Shown here piece by piece: positions 758 to 40,109 of a stretch of DNA of 64,000 nt. Source of the stretch: a virus; the IMG/VR virus record IMGVR_UViG_3300029319_000006, positions 1 through 64,000 of that record, one strand, 5' to 3'. The translations under genes and the position numbers were made by a program. How positions within the stretch are numbered: the stretch's first letter is position 1; each line of letters starts with the position of its first letter. The notes under the pieces were generated by a model. It was not told the origin of the DNA. It saw only the letters and a program-made list of their open reading frames with translations, and did not search any database.

Positions 758-862
758 CTAATTAGTAAAAATATGTGTAATGCTACTATAAATTAATGCA
801 TATGAAACTACTAATACAACACCTAGTACAATTGCTTCGCCTTCTGTAGGTGGTCTATCCAT
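758..862 (-). CDS. tiny membrane protein, 34 aa
   Basis: The frame starts at 862 inside the last codons of the dihydroorotate-dehydrogenase-like gene and ends at 758. It begins MDRPPTEGEAIVLGVVLVV: a short polar N terminus then one hydrophobic segment. The overlap and the following RBS of the next small gene suggest a translationally coupled chain. No function assigned. Confidence 0.5.
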   Translation of the reverse strand: MDRPPTEGEAIVLGVVLVVSYALIYSSITHIFTN

Positions 863-1556
863 TTTTAATTATTTTTTGTATTTTCCATGGAGTAAAACAT
901 ACTGTTCCTAAACTAATATGATCAGCTCCAGCATCAAGATATATAGATGCACTAAAACTATCAGTTACTCCACCTCCTGCAATAATTTCTACATGAGGAT
1001 AATTCTTTTTCAGAAAGGAAATAATTTCCAAGGTATGAGGCGCAATAATTTTTCCACTAAGTCCTCCTTTTTCAGTTGGTAATGTATTACTTGCATGTAT
1101 TTGTTTATATCCTAAATTAATTATCTTATCAAGTTGTTTATGAGTTATTGTTGGTGGTACTTTTACAATACACCACTTACGTTTATCTTTTGAAAATCCT
1201 TTTATTAAACTTGGATGTTTATCGACATTAGGACAACTAATATTAAGTTCAACACTCAAATTTTTAGGTACTATTTGATAAAGAATTTTCCAATCATCTT
1301 TTTGTAAACTTGCTATACTTAAAACATTATGCCATTTATGTTTTTCTAATCCTTTAAATATTCCGGGATTACGTAATCCTAAAGCATTACGCCATCCCCA
1401 ACCAGCTTCTGATTTTACATATCTTAATGTTTTGATTATTTGTTTTAATCTACCAGGACGAGGTTTTAAAGTAAAAGTACCAGTAACACATATTGCATTT
1501 GTAGCAAAGGTAGAATATTGTAAAAAATTACCAAAAGGAGCACTAATAAAATACAT
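855..1556 (-). CDS. dihydroorotate dehydrogenase-like protein (short)
   Basis: FMN-barrel enzyme of the PyrD family, which oxidises dihydroorotate to orotate in pyrimidine synthesis. Visible family motifs: ELNISCPN (about residue 101), VKVPP, a substrate/flavin loop HASNTLP followed by GGLSGKIIAPHTLEII, the phosphate-binding IIAGGGV, and AGADHISLGT. The protein is about 233 residues, whereas complete PyrD is over 300, so the N-terminal strands of the barrel are reduced. ATG 1556 is preferred; a TTG at 1562 is also in frame. With ThyX and dUTPase-like genes it points to support of pyrimidine supply, although a divergent FMN enzyme with another substrate is possible. Confidence 0.75.
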   Translation of the reverse strand: MYFISAPFGNFLQYSTFATNAICVTGTFTLKPRPGRLKQIIKTLRYVKSEAGWGWRNALGLRNPGIFKGLEKHKWHNVLSIASLQKDDWKILYQIVPKNLSVELNISCPNVDKHPSLIKGFSKDKRKWCIVKVPPTITHKQLDKIINLGYKQIHASNTLPTEKGGLSGKIIAPHTLEIISFLKKNYPHVEIIAGGGVTDSFSASIYLDAGADHISLGTVCFTPWKIQKIIKNG

Positions 1557-1563
1557 TACCAAA

Positions 1564-5971: not shown

Positions 5972-6988
5972 TTAAGGTTGTGTAGCATCAATCCCAGGTA
6001 GATATTTTTTCATACCTAACAATTCACCAACAGTAAATTGACCACCAAATGGATCTAACTTACCAGATTTGATATCTTCAGCTATTTTTATAGCTATCAT
6101 TCTAACATTTTCTGGCATATTAGTATAAGGTGCCATTTTTACCATACCGGTATCCATTCCACCCCATGTATCAGCTGATTCCCAAGTACCTTCTAATACA
6201 GCTCTTACTCTTTCCACATAATAAGGACCCCAATCATCTATGATAGCAGTAAGTTGAGTATTTGGAGCAAAGTTAATCATATCTGATGCTTGACCAAAAG
6301 CCTTTACACCTAATTCTTCTGCAACAGATAATGCAGCAGTTGAATCTGTATGTTGTGTAATAATATCAGCACCTTGATTTATCATAACTCTTGCAGCATC
6401 ACCTTCTTTTGCTGGATCATACCAAGTGTTAACCCATACAACATCAATATCAAAATCTGGATTAACAGAAGTAGCACCAAGGTAGAAAGCATTTATACCT
6501 CTAATAACTTCTGGAATTGGAAATGAAGCAATGTATCCAGCTTTACCAGCTTTACTCATATGTCCTGCAATTACACCTTGGATATATCTTCCTTGATAAA
6601 ATTTAGAAGAATATACAGCCATATTATCTGAAGTACTATATCCTGTAGCATGTTCAAACTTTATATCTGGAAACATTTTAGCAACATTTTTCATTTGTTC
6701 CATATATCCAAATGAAGTAGCAAATATCATATCATATCCTTGCATAGCCATTTGAGTCATAACTCTTTCAGCATCAGGTCCATACTTTACACTTTCAACA
6801 TATGTTGTTGTTACTTGATCTCCAAATTCTTTTTCAATTGCTTTACGTCCTTCATCATGCATGTAAGTCCATCCATGATCTCCTGTTGGTCCAACATATA
6901 TAAAACCAACTTTGATATCTGCAAATGCAGTTGATAATAGAAAAAGCGGCATTATTAGGATAGCCAATCCTTTTATGAAATATTTCAT
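5972..6988 (-). CDS. BMP-family (Med/PnrA-like) ABC transporter substrate-binding protein
   Basis: 338 residues with a signal peptide (residues 1-23, LSTAFADIKVG). The N-terminal VGFIYVGPTGDHGWTYMHD matches the opening of basic-membrane-protein family periplasmic binding proteins. It continues with FATSFGYMEQM and a two-lobe layout including INQGADIITQHTD and VKAFGQASDM. Characterised members bind nucleosides or related purine compounds for ABC import. Length is normal and nothing looks broken. It follows PstS and a PiT-like permease, so the cassette may boost uptake of P- or N-containing nutrients by the infected host; the ligand is not readable. Confidence 0.88.
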   Translation of the reverse strand: MKYFIKGLAILIMPLFLLSTAFADIKVGFIYVGPTGDHGWTYMHDEGRKAIEKEFGDQVTTTYVESVKYGPDAERVMTQMAMQGYDMIFATSFGYMEQMKNVAKMFPDIKFEHATGYSTSDNMAVYSSKFYQGRYIQGVIAGHMSKAGKAGYIASFPIPEVIRGINAFYLGATSVNPDFDIDVVWVNTWYDPAKEGDAARVMINQGADIITQHTDSTAALSVAEELGVKAFGQASDMINFAPNTQLTAIIDDWGPYYVERVRAVLEGTWESADTWGGMDTGMVKMAPYTNMPENVRMIAIKIAEDIKSGKLDPFGGQFTVGELLGMKKYLPGIDATQP

Positions 6989-7027
6989 AAGGTTCCTTTC
7001 TTTAGGGAATTTAAAGTTAAAATTTAC

Positions 7028-7053
7028 GGGGAGCAGGATTTCTCCTACACCCC
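7028..7053 (-). other. intercistronic hairpin with GAAA loop
   Basis: GGGGTGTAGGA-GAAA-TCCTGCTCCCC forms an 11-position stem (mostly paired) capped by a GNRA tetraloop between the permease and BMP genes. The following bases are AT-rich but lack a clean U run, so it may be an mRNA-stabilising or attenuating structure rather than a full terminator. Confidence 0.6.
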
Positions 7054-7067
7054 TATATATAAGATTT

Positions 7068-8027
7068 TTATAGTCCGTTTGGAACTATAATATAATGAAT
7101 TGATAATACAACACCAACTGATGCTGCAAGACCAACCATCATCTTTAAGAAGTCTTTTCCAATCAATGGAAAGACAACTTTAAACTTTTCTTTACCGGTA
7201 ACAGTAGCCATGGCTAATTCTCTACCACAAAGAAGTCCAACAAATACCCATGTTGTTGACATAGGAATATCATTTAGTTCTTTAAAGAAAAATAAAATTA
7301 ACCAATATACTCCATCAATGATAGTAGCACTTCTTACATAACGAGTGTTATGTTTTTCAAGTACAATGTTTTGAATCCTACCACCACCTTCACTAAACAT
7401 ATACCAAAGACCAGCAATAAAAACAACACTAATTATTAACATTAAATCAACTGGTATTTCTCTAGGAAGAAACACGGCTATGTTAGCCATATCATGTGAT
7501 AACCAAGTCCACCAAAGAAATCCTGTTGTAAACCATTGACCTATTCGCCAATACTTTTTATGTTCTTCTTTAACTGGTTTAGCTTCATCTAATATTTTAC
7601 TAACTCCAATCCATATAGCATATGCTGCTACAGCTGCAACTGCATATCCCATCATAGATTTCATTAGCATTTTTTCTAATATAAATGTACTAGCAAAAGC
7701 ACTTAAAACTAAAAATGAAGTTGATACAGGAACACCCACTCTAGTAAGTAATACTAGTAATGCTGGTGCCATAGCATGATACCATTGTATTTCTTGAAAA
7801 GGTATCTTATTTAGTCTGCCGTATGATATATCGCCACCATACATATACCAACCGTACCATAAAGCCCAAAGTAAAACAGCAGATGCACACCCCCACATTA
7901 CTTTCCAATTGACTCTTTCGTTATTTGATGCAATCCAAGTACCTAAAGTCTGTACTGAATCATTTGCTATTACTGAATAAGCAGCTAATAAAAAACCAAT
8001 TGCCATCCAAAATGTTATGAGTTCCAT
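7068..8027 (-). CDS. PiT-like inorganic phosphate permease
   Basis: About 319 residues from ATG 8027, chosen because AAGGAA lies just upstream. It is strongly hydrophobic with roughly eight membrane segments. SVIANDSVQTLGTWIAS near the N terminus matches the PiT signature GANDxANAxGT, and VGVPVSTSFLVLSAFAS matches the inverted-repeat motif GxPVSTTH. The PiT family imports phosphate with H+ or Na+. It is shorter than bacterial PitA (about 500 aa) and has diverged motifs, so transport specificity is inferred. It sits downstream of pstS and a terminator-like hairpin. Confidence 0.72.
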   Translation of the reverse strand: MELITFWMAIGFLLAAYSVIANDSVQTLGTWIASNNERVNWKVMWGCASAVLLWALWYGWYMYGGDISYGRLNKIPFQEIQWYHAMAPALLVLLTRVGVPVSTSFLVLSAFASTFILEKMLMKSMMGYAVAAVAAYAIWIGVSKILDEAKPVKEEHKKYWRIGQWFTTGFLWWTWLSHDMANIAVFLPREIPVDLMLIISVVFIAGLWYMFSEGGGRIQNIVLEKHNTRYVRSATIIDGVYWLILFFFKELNDIPMSTTWVFVGLLCGRELAMATVTGKEKFKVVFPLIGKDFLKMMVGLAASVGVVLSIHYIIVPNGL

Positions 8028-8051
8028 TATATTATTTCCTTTTTGTAAAAA

Positions 8052-8073
8052 GGTGAGGAGTTTCCCCCTCACC
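8052..8073 (-). terminator. terminator/attenuator between pstS and the permease
   Basis: On the minus strand GGTGAGG, an 8-base loop and CCTCACC are followed directly by TTTTT. Its position between two functionally linked genes suggests attenuation, so that pstS is made in excess over the permease. Confidence 0.75.
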
Positions 8074-8081
8074 CAATTAAA

Positions 8082-9032
8082 TTAATTAAGTGGTATTAAA
8101 CCACGGTCTGTAGCAGCACCATCTTCACCAATAATTATATCTGAATTAAAGTAATCTACAAATTCTTGTAAGCCAGGTATAATTCCTACATGTTCTTTTT
8201 TATAGTAAAAGTATAAAGGTCTTGATACTTTATAAGAACTGTCTGCTATTGTGTCAAAGGTTGGTTCAACACCATCAATAGTTGCACCTTTAACTTTATC
8301 ATTATTTTGATCTAAGAATGAAAAGCCAAAAACTCCCCATCTGTTATCATCATCATCTAATTTAGCAATAATAAGATTATCATTTTCACCCATCTGTACT
8401 ACGTGTTTGTCTGAACGAACAGCTGAGCAAAGAGCTTTATATCCATCATTACCTTTTTTAGGCATTCCATATACCTTCTTACATACAGAGTGCATAACTA
8501 ATTCAACAAATGCATCTCTTGTACCTGATGAAGGAGGAGGTATCATAATATCAATTTCGTTATTAGGAAAGGAGGGATTAATGTCAGACCATTTTTTATA
8601 TGGATTAGGTACCCATTGACCATCTATTAAAACATTTAGTGCTACTGCGTTAAAGATATCTTCTTTAGTAAAATTTCCTTTAGGTCCAGAATTTGCATTT
8701 GCAAATACAATTCCATCATACCCTATTAAATTTTCTATAGGAGTAACTCCATTGGAAGCACACATTTCTTTTTCAGAATTTTTAATTGCTCTTGAAGCAC
8801 CGGTTAAGTCTGGTGTATTTGTTCCAATACCTTTGCAAAATATTTTCATTCCACCACCAGTTCCAGTTGATTCAATAACAGGAGTTTTGAATTCTGTATT
8901 TTTGCCGAAATATTCTGCGGCAACTGTTGTAAAAGGATAAACTGTAGAAGATCCTACAGATGATATGTAGTCTCGTGCGAGTGCTGGCATAGCCAGAAAC
9001 ATCACACAAATTGTGATTAGTATATTTTTCAT
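8082..9032 (-). CDS. pstS: phosphate-binding protein PstS
   Basis: 316 residues with a signal peptide ending ALA-RDY. The mature start YISSVGSSTVYPFTTVAAE and the loop ESTGTGGGMKIFC are the phosphate-binding P1/P2 segments of PstS. LTGASRAIK and PPPSSGTRDAF complete the ligand site. PstS delivers phosphate to the PstCAB importer in the periplasm. Marine T4-like phages often carry pstS to keep phosphate flowing in starved hosts. I see no convincing Pho box upstream; the tRNA gene ends about 100 bases upstream. Confidence 0.93.
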   Translation of the reverse strand: MKNILITICVMFLAMPALARDYISSVGSSTVYPFTTVAAEYFGKNTEFKTPVIESTGTGGGMKIFCKGIGTNTPDLTGASRAIKNSEKEMCASNGVTPIENLIGYDGIVFANANSGPKGNFTKEDIFNAVALNVLIDGQWVPNPYKKWSDINPSFPNNEIDIMIPPPSSGTRDAFVELVMHSVCKKVYGMPKKGNDGYKALCSAVRSDKHVVQMGENDNLIIAKLDDDDNRWGVFGFSFLDQNNDKVKGATIDGVEPTFDTIADSSYKVSRPLYFYYKKEHVGIIPGLQEFVDYFNSDIIIGEDGAATDRGLIPLN

Positions 9033-9134: not shown

Positions 9135-9223
9135 TGGCTTTGGGGGGTGGATTCGAACCACCACGTCTTGCTCCAGACAATGTATAAACAGTACACCGCG
9201 TCTACCAATTCCGCCACCCCAAA
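9135..9223 (-). tRNA. class II tRNA, anticodon GUU (Asn codons), Leu-like body
   Basis: The minus strand folds as a complete tRNA with CCA encoded: acceptor TTTGGGG/CCCCAAA, G73, D-arm GCGGAATTGGTAGACGC (as in bacterial tRNA-Leu), anticodon stem GTGTA/TACAT, loop CTGTTTA, long variable arm GTCT-GGAGCA-AGAC, T-arm GGTGG-TTCGAAT-CCACC. The loop places GTT at 34-36, which reads asparagine AAC/AAU. Long variable arms normally mark Leu, Ser or Tyr tRNAs, leucine tRNAs carry A73, and position 37 here is U instead of a purine. It begins 4 bases after the stop codon of the AsnRS-like gene, so the two form one transcription unit. Confidence 0.85.
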
Positions 9224-9227
9224 CTAT

Positions 9228-10043
9228 TTAACTCATAGCTGCAATCAGCCTGGTCAATCCTATTCCTCCACCCACTCGTGGAAAGAATTCTAACTTGAAA
9301 AAATCTTCTAATTCTTTTTCTACTCTATCTTTTCCAAATAATTGAAATAATAATTTTGAGTATTCACCTTTTGCAATTGTATGAAATGTATCTCTCATTT
9401 GTTCTTTATCACAGGATCTTTCTGCGGAACCAATAGTTTCCATTCCTCCTAGTATTACATCTATTTTTTTACTATGCATACCAGTATCCCATCTGGACAT
9501 ATTCCAAAAAGGACTTGTGAATTCTGGAAAATCAGTAATCATAGCAGTACCAAATTCTTCACCCATTTGGTTTTCATGTTTAGCTTCAATTTCTTCATAA
9601 GTAGCTAAGTTATAATGTCTCTGCCATGCTTCATATGATTTTTCTTCAGGAGCTGCAAATCCTAGATAATTTACTAACTCTCTTTCCATAGATTTAAGAG
9701 TTGATATATCTCCTGGAAATTCAAATTCAAACATAGGAAAAATAATATCATGTCTTCCTGGTATTGCATTTGGTTCTTGTCTATATGATGTTGAGACACA
9801 AAAAAAGCCAGGAACATCTGGCTTTGTAAGTAATTCGTGTTCTAACCACATTTGTCCCGTTTGTGGTAACGGCCATATTTGACCTGCATAATTGTAAGTA
9901 GCTACATTAAATGGGTCTTCACAGGCAGCAAGAATACTCAATCTATTTTGTGTATGGACTTCTAAAAATCCCTTGTCTAAAAAAAAAGACCGTAAACGGT
10001 CTGTAGTGTCAGTAAATTTTTGCGGGTCAATCAGCTGCGTCAT
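9228..10043 (-). CDS. class IIb aminoacyl-tRNA synthetase-like catalytic domain (AsnRS/AsnA-type)
   Basis: 271 residues that are nearly all class II catalytic core. Motif 2 is TSYRQEP (R88, E90) followed by GRHDIIFPMFEFEF. The Asn/Asp-specific segments are ITDFPEFTSPFW and GGMETIGSAERS, and motif 3 is GGGIGLTRL (R265). The N-terminal OB-fold anticodon-binding domain of AsnRS/AspRS is absent, as in asparagine synthetase A and the archaeal AsnRS-derived asparagine synthetase. It may make free asparagine or charge a tRNA. The adjacent GUU-anticodon tRNA favours a tRNA link. The proline of motif 1 is replaced (EVHTQN). A late box (10077-10084) and AGAGGAAA precede it. Confidence 0.8.
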   Translation of the reverse strand: MTQLIDPQKFTDTTDRLRSFFLDKGFLEVHTQNRLSILAACEDPFNVATYNYAGQIWPLPQTGQMWLEHELLTKPDVPGFFCVSTSYRQEPNAIPGRHDIIFPMFEFEFPGDISTLKSMERELVNYLGFAAPEEKSYEAWQRHYNLATYEEIEAKHENQMGEEFGTAMITDFPEFTSPFWNMSRWDTGMHSKKIDVILGGMETIGSAERSCDKEQMRDTFHTIAKGEYSKLLFQLFGKDRVEKELEDFFKLEFFPRVGGGIGLTRLIAAMS

Positions 10044-10076
10044 ATTTTTTCCTCTAATAAAAAGTTTAAACTGATT

Positions 10077-10084
10077 TATTTATA
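10077..10084 (-). promoter_or_regulatory. late promoter for the AsnRS-like/tRNA unit
   Basis: TATAAATA on the minus strand, 34 bases before ATG 10043, in the gap after the lysin gene. It would place both the synthetase-like gene and the tRNA under late control. Confidence 0.7.
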
Positions 10085-19596: not shown

Positions 19597-20565
19597 TTAT
19601 GTTCCAATCGCATTTCCAAATAGATAACAATGTAGTCTACCAGATACATTATATCCTCTCTTAAAAGCTATTTCAGCTACTTCACCCGCAGATGTTTCTT
19701 GTTCTTCTACGGTAGCTCCTACAGGCATTATATAAACAGGCCAATCTATACCTTTGTCTCTAAACATAGCAAGAACTTCTTCCATTTCTTCCCACTGTTC
19801 TTTTTTAGGACCCATTACAAATTTCAATTGACCTGATGGTCTACCAGGAGATAAGTCATTGTTAACAATAGTACTAATTTTATGATACTCTTGTACTATT
19901 TCAGGCTTGATAGCTTTCTCTCTTTTTTCTCCTGCTACAGTCCACAATTTAGGAGATACAGAAAAGAATACAGGAACAGTCCATACACCTCTATTCAATA
20001 ATGCTTCTCTGAATTCAGGTAAGAATGCTTGAGTACCATTAGTTTCCCATGTTACACACTTAGGTCTATGGTAATCCCAATGCCAAGCCTCCTCAAATTC
20101 TAAAGCAGCCATCTGAGCATGTTTCATCAATGGTTCACCACCGGTTATACAAAGATGTGCTGTTTGCTTAGATATAGGATGATGAAAACTACCAAGTGGA
20201 TTCAAATCATCTTTAGCTGTATTTTTTATCTTTTGTAATATCTCAGCAGCAGTAGCTCTACCCATTAGATGTTTGAACTTCTTAGACCAAGTATAAGAAC
20301 TATCACATCCTTTATCCCACACAGGAAGATCTTCTACTCTATTAACACTTTTTGGATCAAAGTCTTTATAAGGAAGATCGTATGTATCAGGTCTAGTAGG
20401 ATCTATTTGACCAAAGCCATCACATTGTAAGTTACATAAAAAGAATCTAACCCACAATGTCCACGTGCCTGTATAGTATCCTTCTCCTTGAATCGAATTG
20501 AATACTTCTGAGTAAGTATATTGTCTAGCTGGTTTATCTTGAGTAGATTGCACTATTTGCTCCAT
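19597..20565 (-). CDS. queE: QueE-like radical SAM 7-carboxy-7-deazaguanine synthase
   Basis: Converts 6-carboxytetrahydropterin to 7-carboxy-7-deazaguanine. From ATG 20565 it has about 322 residues, longer than usual QueE (about 220). EVFNSIQGEG, WVRFFLCNLQC and CITGGEPL are clear QueE motifs; ETNG and the substrate-side SVSPKLW follow. The cluster motif is unusual: CNLQC is not followed by the third Cys at +3, and the next cysteine lies about 40 residues on in DKGCDSS after an insert. The start overlaps queD. Confidence 0.85.
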   Translation of the reverse strand: MEQIVQSTQDKPARQYTYSEVFNSIQGEGYYTGTWTLWVRFFLCNLQCDGFGQIDPTRPDTYDLPYKDFDPKSVNRVEDLPVWDKGCDSSYTWSKKFKHLMGRATAAEILQKIKNTAKDDLNPLGSFHHPISKQTAHLCITGGEPLMKHAQMAALEFEEAWHWDYHRPKCVTWETNGTQAFLPEFREALLNRGVWTVPVFFSVSPKLWTVAGEKREKAIKPEIVQEYHKISTIVNNDLSPGRPSGQLKFVMGPKKEQWEEMEEVLAMFRDKGIDWPVYIMPVGATVEEQETSAGEVAEIAFKRGYNVSGRLHCYLFGNAIGT

Positions 20566-20977
20566 GTTCTGCACACTCAGCAGATACACACCAACATCTA
20601 CCTTCAGTCATTTCTTTTACTAACTTATCAGCAAATTTAAATGCATGCTCTGCAAATTTCTCTACACCTACTCCATTAAATATAGTAAGTTCACATAATC
20701 CTGCTGCAGCAATATTTTCAAAGTATTGCATCTTAGGATCTTCTAATTCTAATACTACTTTATGATCAAAATGGTCTTCTAACCATTTTTTAAGAGGCTT
20801 TAGACCACCAAAGTCTACAACCCAATTTTTATCATCTAATTGATCACATCCAAATGTAAATTTGAATTGTAAAGCATATCCATGTAGATATTTACAATGG
20901 CTATGTGCATTTGGTTGTCTAAAGCAAGCGCTTAGACCAATATTATGACCATAAGTTTTAGTCGAGTAATATTTCAT
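20534..20977 (-). CDS. queD: 6-carboxy-5,6,7,8-tetrahydropterin synthase
   Basis: 147 residues of the T-fold. CFRQPNAHSHCKYLHGYALQ includes the catalytic Cys and zinc histidines, and VVDFGGLKPLKKWLEDHFDHKV matches the family core DFxxLK and LDHxxL. The C-terminal CVSAECAEHGANSA ends with a glutamate as in QueD. It makes the second intermediate of the 7-deazaguanine route from the FolE product. It overlaps queE by about 32 bases. Confidence 0.93.
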   Translation of the reverse strand: MKYYSTKTYGHNIGLSACFRQPNAHSHCKYLHGYALQFKFTFGCDQLDDKNWVVDFGGLKPLKKWLEDHFDHKVVLELEDPKMQYFENIAAAGLCELTIFNGVGVEKFAEHAFKFADKLVKEMTEGRCWCVSAECAEHGANSAIYSR

Positions 20978-32691: not shown

Positions 32692-33924
32692 TCAACATCC
32701 ATTGTAAGAATCTTCAAATAAAATTCTTTCCAGGATCTCTAATACATGCTCACTATTATCTTTTGATGGAAAATTATCTTGAATAGCTTGTTTAATACAA
32801 TTTCTAGTAAATGGTAATGGAAATCTTTTTCCTTCTGAATTTCTTCCAGTATTAATTAAATAAACATTACAATTGTGTCTAGTTATTTTTTGCATTAATA
32901 AATCACTGTACCATGATATTGGTCTAGGCATAAATGGAGATCCATAACATGGTGAACAAACTCTTGTTATTTGATCTGATCCTGCTTCTGTTCCAGGCAT
33001 TTGACTTGTGTATCCAGTTTCAAAAAACTTACGAACAGTTTCACCACTTATTTTACTTATTGGAGGAAATGCTCCTTCTGCATCCATAGTTAAGAAAAAT
33101 ATATTATTTGCATGACCAAAATCTTGAGGTTCCGAATAAGCATTATCTACCATAGATATAGGATAACTTAATCTAGCGTTAGCAACACCAGGATTTTCAA
33201 CTACTAAACATGACATATTCTTTGCATTTTCAACTGCATTAAAAATAGTTTCATGTGTCTCAGGTGTTAGACCTTCGCTTTTTGCATAACAACCTACTTC
33301 TATCATTCTTATTCCATCATCAGTCCAAGCTATTTCATCATCACCTATAAGTTCAAAATCAGGATCACTACTAAGAGTTGTTTTGCCTGTCCCGCTTAAT
33401 CCAAACATAAGATTAGTAGTATTGTTGTAAGTGAATGCACTACAATGCATTGGAAGAATACCACGTCTAGGTAATTCAAAACTCATAATACCAAATATAC
33501 CTTTTTTTATTTCACCAAGAAATGTTGTACCAGCTATCAATACAAGTCTTGAATCTAAATGAATATAAATTTTAGGTTGATCTAATTTTAATTCTGTGTT
33601 ATGTAATATCTGCCAATCTTGCATTACTAAATTTGTAACACCATTATCAAACTCATATATTTCTTCAAACATATTTCGAATAAATTGAGCATGTCTATCA
33701 TCATTAGTTCTAATTCTAAACTTTTTATCAAATACATTTACACAAATATTGTGATCGTATTTTAGATTACACATTTGAGACCAGAATTTATCAAAGTCTT
33801 CTTGTTTACCTATTTTATTGTATTTGGGTCTTGATGTATCTAAACATTTAGTCTTATGACCAAAGTAAAATTTATTTTCAGGGCTTCGACCAGTTGGACT
33901 AGTCTTAATAGTATAATTTGGCAT
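32692..33924 (-). CDS. phosphoenolpyruvate carboxykinase (ATP-type) homologue
   Basis: 410 residues. Visible PEPCK features in order: GRSPENKF (substrate Arg), GEIKKGIFGIMSF (metal Lys and kinase-1a region), LPMHCSAF, FGLSGTGKTTLSSD (P-loop), LIGDDEIAW (metal-binding kinase-2), EAGSDQITR region and NTGRNSEGKRFPL with TRN. All catalytic segments seem present, but the protein is about 120 residues shorter than bacterial PckA (about 530), mostly in the N-terminal domain. It would interconvert oxaloacetate and PEP with ATP. A metabolic enzyme of this kind is unexpected in a phage. Confidence 0.9.
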   Translation of the reverse strand: MPNYTIKTSPTGRSPENKFYFGHKTKCLDTSRPKYNKIGKQEDFDKFWSQMCNLKYDHNICVNVFDKKFRIRTNDDRHAQFIRNMFEEIYEFDNGVTNLVMQDWQILHNTELKLDQPKIYIHLDSRLVLIAGTTFLGEIKKGIFGIMSFELPRRGILPMHCSAFTYNNTTNLMFGLSGTGKTTLSSDPDFELIGDDEIAWTDDGIRMIEVGCYAKSEGLTPETHETIFNAVENAKNMSCLVVENPGVANARLSYPISMVDNAYSEPQDFGHANNIFFLTMDAEGAFPPISKISGETVRKFFETGYTSQMPGTEAGSDQITRVCSPCYGSPFMPRPISWYSDLLMQKITRHNCNVYLINTGRNSEGKRFPLPFTRNCIKQAIQDNFPSKDNSEHVLEILERILFEDSYNGC

Positions 33925-33927
33925 AAT

Positions 33928-34356
33928 TTATCCTGGCATTGTAAAAAGAGCTTTTATTCCATCATTTACTTTAATTGGTTTACGAGCAAATATAACCCAC
34001 TTAATGGCGTAAATAGTATCTTGTGTAGTACAAAATTCTCTAAAACTTGTTCCTGTAGTATAGACATCATCACATACTAATAAAGGATCATCTGGATTGT
34101 TAGAAGCATATTTGTTAAGAGCATTTTGTAAAGGAACACCTCCTCTAGGAATTCCAATAGCTTTTCTAAATGGTTCTTTTTGATAATCCATTATCATTGT
34201 AGCAAGTGCTCTCCACTCTGTATGATCTATAGCATCACATTCAATTTTCCATTTAAGTGGTAATCCTGCATGTGATTTGAAATCACCTATTTGAAATAAT
34301 CTTATAAATTCAAAATTAGGAACAGTTGTGGTATCAAATTGTTCATCAAACATCAT
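33928..34356 (-). CDS. phosphoribosyltransferase-like protein, 142 aa
   Basis: DPLLVCDDVYTTGTSFREF is the type I PRTase PRPP-binding motif (two acidic residues then TxGTS), and AIGIPRGGVPLQNAL the preceding loop. The hood domain that sets specificity is small. It lies between the PEPCK gene and a second PRTase; orotate or purine salvage are options. Confidence 0.78.
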   Translation of the reverse strand: MMFDEQFDTTTVPNFEFIRLFQIGDFKSHAGLPLKWKIECDAIDHTEWRALATMIMDYQKEPFRKAIGIPRGGVPLQNALNKYASNNPDDPLLVCDDVYTTGTSFREFCTTQDTIYAIKWVIFARKPIKVNDGIKALFTMPG

Positions 34357-34546
34357 CTATCACCTTTACTATAGGTTCTTCAGAAGTTGCATCTATATAA
34401 TCTTCTTTATTACTGTAAAAAGATCTTGTTACAACATGTTTAACTAACATATCGTTTTTTATTTTATATGTAATCAATTCTTGTTTTACAATATTATGAT
34501 CATCTTGATCAGCCGCAATTTTCAATGGACCTGGTTTCATAATCAT
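34346..34546 (-). CDS. hypothetical protein, 66 aa
   Basis: Beta-rich small protein between two PRTase-like genes, overlapping both. Begins MIMKPGPLKIAADQDD. No family recognised. Confidence 0.55.
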   Translation of the reverse strand: MIMKPGPLKIAADQDDHNIVKQELITYKIKNDMLVKHVVTRSFYSNKEDYIDATSEEPIVKVIDDV

Positions 34547-35043
34547 ACTATATCCTCTATTTTCATAGCTTCATACTTTTCCATTGGTTGATGTATCCAA
34601 GGATTATCAGGCAATAGATCAACATAATAATCAGGTGTATATTCTGAACAACCTTTCATCCATAGTACTGCTGTTCTAACATCATCTATAAAAAAACCAT
34701 GATAATGTTTTAAATATTGTAAACTCTTTTCTAATGTTTTACCAGAGTCTGCTAAATCATCTACTAATATAACTTTATTACCCAGATTAGGAGTTGTCTT
34801 GGCTAACGAATTAGAAAAAATTAATTGTCCTTGTTTATCTTTCACTTTATCTCCATGATAAGATTCAGCAGCCATAATAGCTAATGGAACATCAAACAAT
34901 CTAGCAAATACATCTCCAACTCTCAACCCCCCTTTTGCTATACACACAACTTGATTAAATTCAAAACCATCACCGTGTATTTTTTTTGCTAACTTTTCAA
35001 TATCTCTTTCATATCGATCCCATGATATATTTAAACCAGTCAT
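34543..35043 (-). CDS. xanthine/hypoxanthine-type phosphoribosyltransferase
   Basis: 166 residues from ATG 35043, preceded by AAAGGAGA. VVCIAKGGLRVGDVFARLF matches the IxRGGxxxAxxLA loop, NKVILVDDLADSGKTLEKSL is the PRPP motif, and VRTAVLWMKGCSEYTPDYY the hood-proximal strand of Gpt-like enzymes. It would salvage a purine base with PRPP. With the BMP-family nucleoside-type binding protein it suggests attention to purine supply. Confidence 0.83.
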   Translation of the reverse strand: MTGLNISWDRYERDIEKLAKKIHGDGFEFNQVVCIAKGGLRVGDVFARLFDVPLAIMAAESYHGDKVKDKQGQLIFSNSLAKTTPNLGNKVILVDDLADSGKTLEKSLQYLKHYHGFFIDDVRTAVLWMKGCSEYTPDYYVDLLPDNPWIHQPMEKYEAMKIEDIV

Positions 35044-35564
35044 TTTTTCTCCTTTATTCCAAATGATAATAATAGTCTTGATGAGTCTGGATATGCTGCA
35101 TGATGTATTCCTTTTGGAATATAAAGCCATTCACCTCTTTTTAATCTTTTAGATATAGTTGATCTAGTAGTCATAGTTTTCTTTATATCATCATAATCAC
35201 AACCATCTTCAAATACTCTCCAATTGCATTCACCCATTACTTGAACTACAAATACTGTCATTCCATCAGTGTGAGGAGGAGATGCTCTTGAATTTATCCC
35301 TAGTCCTGCATACACATGGACAGAATCCATTTTTAGATTAAAATTTTCTATTTGTTTTTTAACATAAGACATCAAAGGGAAAAATAAATTTTTTCGTTCA
35401 AAATTTAATCCAACAAATATTTTTCTTGTGTCTTGACTACGTTTATTAGTATTTGGATGACGAGCTATACTATCAAACCATGGTATTATTTGATCCCATG
35501 TTGGATAATAATCGTCGTTGATTTTAAACTTACCTTGTTGTACTTTATCAGGGGAAAAGTTCAT
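35040..35564 (-). CDS. cupin (JmjC/ribosomal-oxygenase-like) protein
   Basis: From ATG 35564 (ATGA overlap with the upstream stop) about 174 residues. SRASPPHTDGMTVFVVQVMG provides HxD on the cupin barrel with the following strand, then CNWRVFED; GEWLYIPKGIHHAAYPDSS provides the distal His; LLLSFGI closes the barrel. This is the Cupin_4 arrangement of Fe(II)/2OG hydroxylases that modify ribosomal proteins. Target unknown. Confidence 0.72.
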   Translation of the reverse strand: MNFSPDKVQQGKFKINDDYYPTWDQIIPWFDSIARHPNTNKRSQDTRKIFVGLNFERKNLFFPLMSYVKKQIENFNLKMDSVHVYAGLGINSRASPPHTDGMTVFVVQVMGECNWRVFEDGCDYDDIKKTMTTRSTISKRLKRGEWLYIPKGIHHAAYPDSSRLLLSFGIKEKK

Positions 35565-37462: not shown

Positions 37463-38436
37463 TATATTGTTATTTCTTGATTTCTTTTTACTTTACGTAA
37501 ATTATCATCTACTTGTATATTTTGTACTTTATGAGTTTCTATTTCAAAAGGAAATGTAATATTTTCTAAAAATAATTTTCTTCTCATTTCTCCTGTAAAA
37601 TAAACTTTACATGATTTTTTTTCTTTTCTGCATAATGCTAATGAAGCTCCTGCTTCTATTGCTAGCTTTTCAATTTGTTCTGGATATACTTTATCACCAC
37701 AATTATCCATTTTAAACATATTATATTTTCTACCAACAATCTTAAATCCATTTGTGTATTGTTCTACTAGATCACCAGAATACCACCAATCTTTTTGTGT
37801 TTTATATTTACACACAATTTCATTATCTTGTATTTTAAAATCAATGTTTGGATTTATATCATCATAACAATAATCATCTTGTAACTCAGTAGACATAATT
37901 ATAGGAGGAACTTCAGATGATCCATATGCTGTATCAACTCTTTTGGCTCCTTTAGATCTCAAATCTTCCATAAGATGATTAGGAGTAATATCACTACCAA
38001 CTTGCATGTGTTGAATAAAAGACAAATCTACGTTTTTCCATGATTTATGTTTGTGCCATGTTTTCCAAACATTAGGAAGTATAAGAGTATGTGTTGGTTT
38101 TATTTCTAGTAATCTAGATACATAATGATCTACTGTTGTTTCTATAAATAAATCACAATTAGATTCTTGAGCTAAAAATAAAGCCATGGAAGTAAATCCA
38201 ATTCCTCTTGGACTGTACAGTCCTAATAATACAGATTTTGAATTTAAATTCATATACTGAACATTATATTTTGCTATATCTGTCATAAGTTCAGATGAAT
38301 GTGAAAATATTTTAGGAGTACCAGTAGTACCAGACGAAGACACTGTAACTTGTCTATTACTTAAACCTTTTATTATACTTTCATAAACTTTTTTATTTTT
38401 ACTAATTCCGTATGGAACTCTATCAATATAAATCAT
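37462..38436 (-). CDS. compact ANL-superfamily adenylating enzyme
   Basis: 324 residues. VTVSSSGTTGTPKIFSHS is the AMP-binding P-loop (A3). DTAYGSSEVPP is A5, WWYSGDLVEQYTNGFKIVGRKYN spans A7-A8, and KVYPEQIEKLA A9-like; a Lys-rich end (RKVKRNQE) could supply the A10 lysine. Typical ANL enzymes exceed 500 residues, so this is a minimal version with reduced N-terminal subdomains. It activates a carboxylic acid as acyl-AMP. Coupled to the halogenase-like gene by an overlap. Confidence 0.82.
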   Translation of the reverse strand: MIYIDRVPYGISKNKKVYESIIKGLSNRQVTVSSSGTTGTPKIFSHSSELMTDIAKYNVQYMNLNSKSVLLGLYSPRGIGFTSMALFLAQESNCDLFIETTVDHYVSRLLEIKPTHTLILPNVWKTWHKHKSWKNVDLSFIQHMQVGSDITPNHLMEDLRSKGAKRVDTAYGSSEVPPIIMSTELQDDYCYDDINPNIDFKIQDNEIVCKYKTQKDWWYSGDLVEQYTNGFKIVGRKYNMFKMDNCGDKVYPEQIEKLAIEAGASLALCRKEKKSCKVYFTGEMRRKLFLENITFPFEIETHKVQNIQVDDNLRKVKRNQEITI

Positions 38437-40109
38437 CTTTCACTCATAGCCTCTTCTAATACTTCATTATGTGTTCTTCCACCATACAGATATTTTTTAC
38501 TCCAATCATATACATGAGGAGCTATCTTAGCTATTTGCTGACCTTTTTGTTTTATATAATTATAATCTATTTCAGCTAATTTTAACAAATCTTTATCAAT
38601 TTGTAAATCACACAGTTTATCATCCCATCTATCTAAGTACATTTGTTGATCAGCCCATTGAAAATCTAGAAAGAAATTAGCTCCAAGATATCCTCTTGGA
38701 CTTCTATATTCCTTCCAATTCTTTTTTATATGATCATTATCAATTCCATATTGTCCCCATTTTCTCCAAAATTCAGTATCACGTCTTTTACTTAGAGTGT
38801 AATGATAACATATAAAATCACTTATCTGACTATGAAGTTTGTGTATTTCTCTTGTGACAGCTTTTTTTGTAGATTCTTTTATAATCGATCCTTTATATTT
38901 TTTTAAAGCATGATTAAGCATTTGCATTCCTGCTTGGCCAACATATACTACATTAGCTTCCATAGGATCTACAAATCCTTGAGACATTCCTATTCCTATA
39001 ACATTTTTATCCCAACATTTATCATAATATCCTTGTTCCCATTGAATTAATCTAGGTTCAGCTAAAAATTCATAACCATCCCAATAACTAATAAAGTCTT
39101 CTCTTGCTTTATCTTTATCATAAGTATTAGCATCAAATATGTAACCTGAACCCATTCTACTAAAAAGAGTAATAATAAATTGCCAGCCAGCTTCTCTAGC
39201 ATAACTTTGGGTGTAGGGCTTCATTTCATTATATGGATCCTTATACTTTAAAGGAGCTACCCAAGCACTTTGTGTAGGTTGTTGATCAATATGTTTAAAC
39301 TTTACATCCATTCCTTTAAGAAGTACTTTATGAAATCCTGAACAATCAACATATAAATCAGCTCCACACTTTAATCCATTTGCTAATGATAATTTATTCA
39401 CATATCCATCAGTGTCATAATGAACTCCATTAATATGAGATTTTATCCATTTTACTCCAAGTTTAAGAGCAGATAAGTCTCTAATTATTTTAGGAAATCT
39501 TGCAGCATCTGCATGCCATGTATAACTTCCATATCCACCAGTAACTTTATAGTTATCATTATAACGAGCAGATCTATTAGCCATAGATGGATAATATTGC
39601 TCCATAGTATACTCACCTTGCTCATGCCATTTATATTTTCCTGATCTTACTAAATGATACCAATAATCTCTACTTTTTTCATCTATACCAAATTTGTTAT
39701 TATTATCATTAAAATAATCTTCATCAGTTCTTTGATGATATAAATTATTTTTAAAGACATTTGTTCTATGAGTAAAACTAAAAGTATAATAATGTTGATA
39801 TTCTTTTTTAGCATTCCAATGATCAGTTACGTGTCTCATAGGTGTTTCTGTATTCCATCCAACAAAATGATTTCCCATTTTATGAATACCATGAACATTA
39901 CTTAACCACTGACGTTCATCAATACCCAACCAACTCAAAAGTTGACCAAGTTGAGGAACCATACTTTCACCAACTCCTAATATAGGTACTTTATCAGATT
40001 CTATTACTGTGACATCAATGTCACGATTAAACTTTTTTAAATATGCGGCTGTAAACCATCCAGCAACTCCACCTCCTACAACAATGATAGATTTTACATC
40101 AGTCTTCAT
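38433..40109 (-). CDS. flavin-dependent tryptophan-halogenase-like protein
   Basis: 558 residues. IIVVGGGVAGWFTAAYLKK is the FAD GxGxxG box, and ILGVGESMVPQLGQLLSWLG the halogenase signature following it. HKMGNHFVGW contains the lysine expected to carry hypohalous acid. The WxWxIP motif of classical halogenases is altered to GWQFIITLFSRMGSGYIF, so halogenating activity is uncertain. Such genes recur in marine T4-like phages without a known substrate. Here it is joined to an adenylating enzyme, which suggests a carrier- or AMP-activated substrate. Confidence 0.88.
   Translation of the reverse strand: MKTDVKSIIVVGGGVAGWFTAAYLKKFNRDIDVTVIESDKVPILGVGESMVPQLGQLLSWLGIDERQWLSNVHGIHKMGNHFVGWNTETPMRHVTDHWNAKKEYQHYYTFSFTHRTNVFKNNLYHQRTDEDYFNDNNNKFGIDEKSRDYWYHLVRSGKYKWHEQGEYTMEQYYPSMANRSARYNDNYKVTGGYGSYTWHADAARFPKIIRDLSALKLGVKWIKSHINGVHYDTDGYVNKLSLANGLKCGADLYVDCSGFHKVLLKGMDVKFKHIDQQPTQSAWVAPLKYKDPYNEMKPYTQSYAREAGWQFIITLFSRMGSGYIFDANTYDKDKAREDFISYWDGYEFLAEPRLIQWEQGYYDKCWDKNVIGIGMSQGFVDPMEANVVYVGQAGMQMLNHALKKYKGSIIKESTKKAVTREIHKLHSQISDFICYHYTLSKRRDTEFWRKWGQYGIDNDHIKKNWKEYRSPRGYLGANFFLDFQWADQQMYLDRWDDKLCDLQIDKDLLKLAEIDYNYIKQKGQQIAKIAPHVYDWSKKYLYGGRTHNEVLEEAMSER

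Follow-up and report, generated by a model that had tools for sequence, protein, structure and literature searches.

The DNA analysed here, called the window, comprises positions 1 to 64,000 of IMG/VR virus record IMGVR_UViG_3300029319_000006 (64,000 nucleotides of a 146,762-bp record). Its minus strand encodes an AsnRS-like protein, here named enzyme X, and, 4 nt past the stop codon of X, a complete tRNA with the anticodon GUU, here named the partner tRNA. The features considered below are as follows.

9228..10043, minus strand: enzyme X, an AsnRS-like class II catalytic core without an anticodon-binding domain, 271 aa (open reading frame, Pfam, PHROG and AF2 model)
9135..9223, minus strand: partner tRNA, 89 nt, CCA encoded, anticodon GTT (Rfam tRNA, 46.7 bits, E 1.6e-8)
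9187..9189, minus strand: anticodon GUU, the same in 75/75 partner tRNAs and followed here by U at position 37
9163..9179, minus strand: long variable arm, its stem backed by compensatory changes in relatives
9138, minus strand: discriminator G73 (75/75), an Asn/GatCAB-type determinant together with U1:A72 (75/75; PMC9976931)
10077..10084, minus strand: TATAAATA, a box resembling a T4-type late promoter, with the ATG of X 33 nt downstream
855..1562, minus strand: dihydroorotate dehydrogenase (DHODH)-like protein, 235 aa (Pfam DHO_dh, 59.3 bits, cut-off 27; NCBIfam DHODH, 1.5e-18)
33928..34356, minus strand: PyrE-like phosphoribosyltransferase (PRTase), 142 aa, with the PRPP motif VCDDVYTTGTS (matched at 7.5e-63 by an HMM built from 16 phage PRTases near X)
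34543..35130, minus strand: second PRTase-domain protein (Pfam Pribosyltran, 90.4 bits)

The promoter-like box lies where the sequence-only reading had placed a late promoter for the pair, but ten copies of the octamer occur on the minus strand of the window, so that the box alone is weak evidence. ARAGORN detected no tRNA besides the partner tRNA in the record of this phage. The DHODH gene is on the same strand as the pair, about 7.7 kb downstream. The PyrE-like PRTase has no Pfam match by itself, and its relatives adjoin X in other phages. Several further minus-strand genes were named by eye. The stretch 5972-9032, downstream of the pair, encodes a BMP-like binding protein, a membrane protein and a PstS-like phosphate-binding protein; about 20 other phage loci have relatives of the BMP-like and the membrane protein near X. 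Elsewhere in the window are genes resembling a QueE-type radical SAM protein (19597-20589), an ATP-type PEP carboxykinase (32692-33924) and a tryptophan halogenase (38433-40109).

Enzyme X and the partner tRNA

Enzyme X is matched by Pfam tRNA-synt_2 at 58.5 bits (cut-off 25) and belongs to phrog_29758 (415 bits), the function of which is annotated as unknown in PHROG. The motif 2 residues R88 and E90 and the motif 3 residue R265 are invariant across 57 relatives. Both the reading frame and the AF2 model (pLDDT 92.9) consist of the core only, and the anticodon-binding OB domain is absent, which bears out the earlier description of X as an AsnRS-type core lacking that domain. Foldseek matched the model to AspRS and AsnRS cores. 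The sequence-profile comparison with E. coli AsnA yielded no usable match (2.8% probability), and the archaeal AS-AR was not among the PDB profile matches of X at E<=0.01. X shares with AsnRS (TIGR00457) the class IIb catalytic fold (TM normalised to query length 0.70-0.79), the motif 2 and 3 arginines and the pocket, which reads Q-M-W-L-E in X, Q-L-Y-A-E in AsnRS and Q-F-Y-K-Q in AspRS. The pocket of X is of the AsnRS type (Q-x-x-L-E), and the Asp-binding Lys of AspRS is missing. X differs from AsnRS in the missing OB-fold anticodon domain, in its setting among pyrimidine genes and in R256, an invariant Arg where the alignment places the motif 3 His of AsnRS and AspRS. It scores 18.1 bits with the NCBIfam AsnRS equivalog TIGR00457, for which the cut-off is 342.6.

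The partner tRNA is a chimera, in which the D-arm and the long variable arm are Leu-like, and the first acceptor pair, the discriminator and the anticodon are Asn-like. The anticodon GUU, G73 and U1:A72 are present in all 75 partner tRNAs, while acceptor pairs 2-5 vary freely. In 25 diverse partner tRNAs, 99.5% of helix cells are paired and there are 136 two-sided changes, as against 35 in shuffles, so that the tRNA is folded and under selection. The Asp, Glu and Ile calls by ARAGORN for partner tRNAs of 98-103 nt were discarded: long variable arms shift the anticodon, and structure-guided parsing gives GUU in all of them.

The anticodon loop sets the partner tRNA apart. Position 37 is a pyrimidine (U or C) in 43 of 48 distinct partner tRNAs, as against none of the 94 other distinct phage tRNAs taken from the same contig set (Fisher 4e-31), and position 33 is not U (C33 or G33 forms) in 3 of the 48; U33 and a purine at 37 are present in all 94 controls. 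A short variable loop, U33 and a purine at 37 would be expected of a decoding tRNA-Asn; the partner tRNA has a long variable arm instead, and U37 in the window. Judged from its bases, the partner tRNA probably lacks a decoding-competent anticodon loop and so is probably not a decoder.

Linkage to the tRNA and to pyrimidine genes

Relatives of X are encoded on 546 IMG/VR stretches, 80 of which were read. A complete partner tRNA follows X in 71 of these loci, one contig ends inside the tRNA, and 8 have none. Conversely, among contigs found by the tRNA pattern alone, X lies 33-169 nt upstream in 109 of 109 testable cases (nine others end too soon), and the adjacency is thus not due to chance. The tRNA is thus never found by itself, but X occurs alone in the 8 phage loci and in nearly all cellular homologues. 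A search of the tRNA-less phages for a hidden partner tRNA recovered just ordinary Leu and other tRNAs. These phages are dispersed through the phage clade of the X tree, which points to repeated loss of the tRNA. The partner tRNA therefore depends on X, and X, which several phages and most cells have alone, does not strictly require the tRNA. The pair is old. It is also carried by the cyanophages P-SSM2, P-SSM5 and P-SSM7, whose T4-GC194 'tRNA ligase' is 60-64% identical to X and is likewise followed by this GUU tRNA after about 8-10 nt; the 'tRNA ligase' was published just as a table entry, in which neither the tRNA pairing nor a pathway is discussed (PMC3037559). In the P-SSM2 record (AY939844.2, our locus L083), the annotated tRNA-Asn at 164094-164179 is about 2 kb off, the actual tRNA being at about 162083-162168, right behind the 'tRNA ligase' gene. 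In another phage contig (L018:3933-4278), ARAGORN calls a tmRNA, marked permuted, immediately behind the partner tRNA.

The neighbours of the pair are repeatedly genes of pyrimidine synthesis. The order X-tRNA-pyrF-pyrD is found in L002, the closest relative of the window, and in L368 and L400; pyrD-X-tRNA in L389 and L393-L396; pyrD-X-tRNA-PRTase in L061 and L405; X-pyrD in L041; and X-PRTase in L022. All phage pyrF loci seen, on three contigs, occur with X and the partner tRNA. Of 43 phage loci with a DHODH, 12 have X no more than 6 kb away, in every case on the same strand and in most cases as the immediate neighbour; this co-occurrence was counted within marine phages and is inflated by their shared ancestry. 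P-SSM2 and P-SSM7, which have both X and the tRNA, carry no relative of the phage DHODH, and queries with the PRTase and the DHODH against 50,697 phage records returned no PRTase and six distant DHODHs.

Phage X forms a single clade nested within a cellular family, and the invariant residues are common to both. Scanning cellular genomes yielded 129 relatives, of which 80 were read; they show about 50% identity and come from CPR, DPANN, Dependentiae, Chlamydiae, Rickettsiales-like symbionts, Aureispira and Pasteurella atlantica, among others. Among 77 cellular loci, 26 adjoin pyrD, pyrE or pyrF (genes for dihydroorotate dehydrogenase, an orotate PRTase-like protein and OMP decarboxylase); Dus proteins at nine CPR loci were left out of the PyrD count. 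PyrD scores over the cut-off in 15 of 26 X genomes, many of which are MAGs of unreported completeness. Of these 15, PyrB is missing over the cut-off in 13 and CarB in 14, whereas both are present in 14 of 14 controls; PyrC_multi is over the cut-off in 2, with five weaker relatives. The other 11 genomes (CPR, DPANN and some Dependentiae) have no PyrD over the cut-off, and X may do something else there. At CPR-type loci (L268, L276, L293, L304, L311, L315, L320, L339 and others), X often lies beside a DnaX-like gene and a dihydrouridine synthase rather than pyr genes, and the DnaX-like cluster, named by eye, is common to 11 of them. Two readings of the cellular genomes were rejected. Pasteurellaceae are not a clean replacement of PyrB by X, since all 140 are without PyrB over the cut-off, with or without X, and X is not the sole AsnRS of its hosts, as AsnRS is over the cut-off in 11 of 26 genomes and GatB in 16 of 26.

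Possible roles of the pair

Gene order and gene content make it very probable that X is a metabolic AsnRS paralogue acting in de novo pyrimidine synthesis. Complete pyr operons leave one unknown gene, X, which is therefore a candidate for the supply of dihydroorotate; because it is encoded with pyrD, pyrE and pyrF, usually in genomes without PyrB and CarB, X probably supplies this compound by another route. Our proposal for the reaction, to which we give slightly less than an even chance, is that X uses asparagine, CO2 and ATP to make dihydroorotate. An ATP-driven ring closure on asparagine is proposed because Asn + CO2 - H2O equals dihydroorotic acid exactly, with the amide N becoming N3 and the alpha N becoming N1. 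X would activate L-asparagine with ATP in its AsnRS-type pocket and close the ring with CO2 or bicarbonate, perhaps via the usual Asn-adenylate and a carbamate. The phage would thereby bypass the feedback-controlled CarAB and PyrB steps of its host.

More tentatively still, the partner tRNA may be a captive, non-decoding carrier or sensor of asparagine. In bacteria, Asn identity resides in the anticodon and G73, while the U1-A72 pair is the signal for amidation of Asp-tRNA(Asn) (PMC9976931). The partner tRNA retains both the identity elements, GUU and G73, and U1:A72, which the amidotransferase requires. Because the anticodon should be out of reach for an enzyme that consists of the core only, GUU would be kept for the host AsnRS or AspRS, recognition by which most simply explains its retention. 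Host enzymes would charge the tRNA, the asparagine would be delivered or reported to X and not to the ribosome, and the Leu-like long arm may mark the tRNA for X. Such delivery would be useful where the host makes asparagine solely on tRNA. The explanation as a whole, a pyrimidine enzyme X with a captive asparagine-type tRNA, is plausible at not quite even chances.

An alternative accepts X as a pyrimidine enzyme and takes the tRNA as independent of it, an Asn tRNA whose altered anticodon loop protects it from anticodon nucleases, or which makes up for the asparagine that X consumes. Phage tRNAs that evade nucleases through anticodon-loop changes are known (PMC10264068), and position 37 is altered here. 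A free-standing defence tRNA, however, would not need to be tied to X, without which the tRNA is never found, and the C33 and G33 forms should decode poorly. We regard this alternative as unlikely.

The sequence-only reading had suggested a dedicated phage aminoacylation system acting late in infection. As an orthogonal pair, X would recognise the acceptor end and the variable arm and attach asparagine to the tRNA, and the tRNA would decode AAC/AAU during infection. The dedicated pairing stands, the tRNA being obligately linked to the enzyme. Charging by X would also suit its intact class II motifs, a G73 that should exclude LeuRS, and a GUU that is invariant though it should be out of reach for a core-only enzyme. 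The role in translation, in contrast, is unsupported, as purine 37 is lost in 43 of 48 loops and U33 in 3 of 48, phages and cells exist that have X but not the tRNA, and X sits in pyrimidine operons; this makes the proposal quite unlikely.

We consider it very unlikely, too, that the uncharged tRNA regulates X, sensing asparagine through host charging and turning X off when asparagine is short; Asn identity without decoding features, the position immediately behind X and the tolerated loss of the tRNA would all suit such a regulator. Finally, core-only AsnRS relatives that make free asparagine exist in archaea, and X had been suggested to be such an AsnA/AS-AR-type synthetase, with the tRNA boosting Asn decoding, but the missing AsnA match, a pocket with Leu-Glu in place of the Lys-Gln of AspRS, and pyrD/E/F operons without PyrB and CarB that it leaves unexplained render this highly improbable.

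Relation to known systems and significance

Like the metabolic aaRS paralogues AsnA, archaeal AS-AR and EpmA/GenX, X reuses a catalytic core without the anticodon domain; unlike X, these have no partner tRNA, and X lacks a match to the E. coli AsnA profile. Transfer RNAs serve metabolism elsewhere, tRNA-Gly in the staphylococcal cell wall and tRNA-Glu in tetrapyrrole synthesis, as is proposed for the partner tRNA. To our knowledge, no known non-translational tRNA is an Asn-type class II hybrid within a pyrimidine operon, and in literature searches on AsnRS-like proteins of phages and on pyrimidine synthesis from asparagine the one table entry was the sole relevant result. The position of the pair among pyrimidine genes suggests an undescribed way to build DNA pyrimidines and not an ordinary aid to translation. 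In its broadest form the proposal is speculative, with a modest chance of being right: an aaRS paralogue shared by CPR, symbionts, predators and marine phages would make dihydroorotate directly from asparagine, CO2 and ATP. In the marine phages it would be fed by a captive tRNA on which the host makes asparagine, and a tRNA would thus be a cofactor in nucleotide synthesis.

If true, this would be an undescribed entry reaction to de novo pyrimidines and would explain organisms that have pyrD/E/F without CarAB and PyrB. Phages would use the asparagine entry reaction to escape the feedback control of their hosts, and a tRNA would have been recruited into nucleotide metabolism, joining translation and DNA supply in the infection of abundant ocean bacteria.
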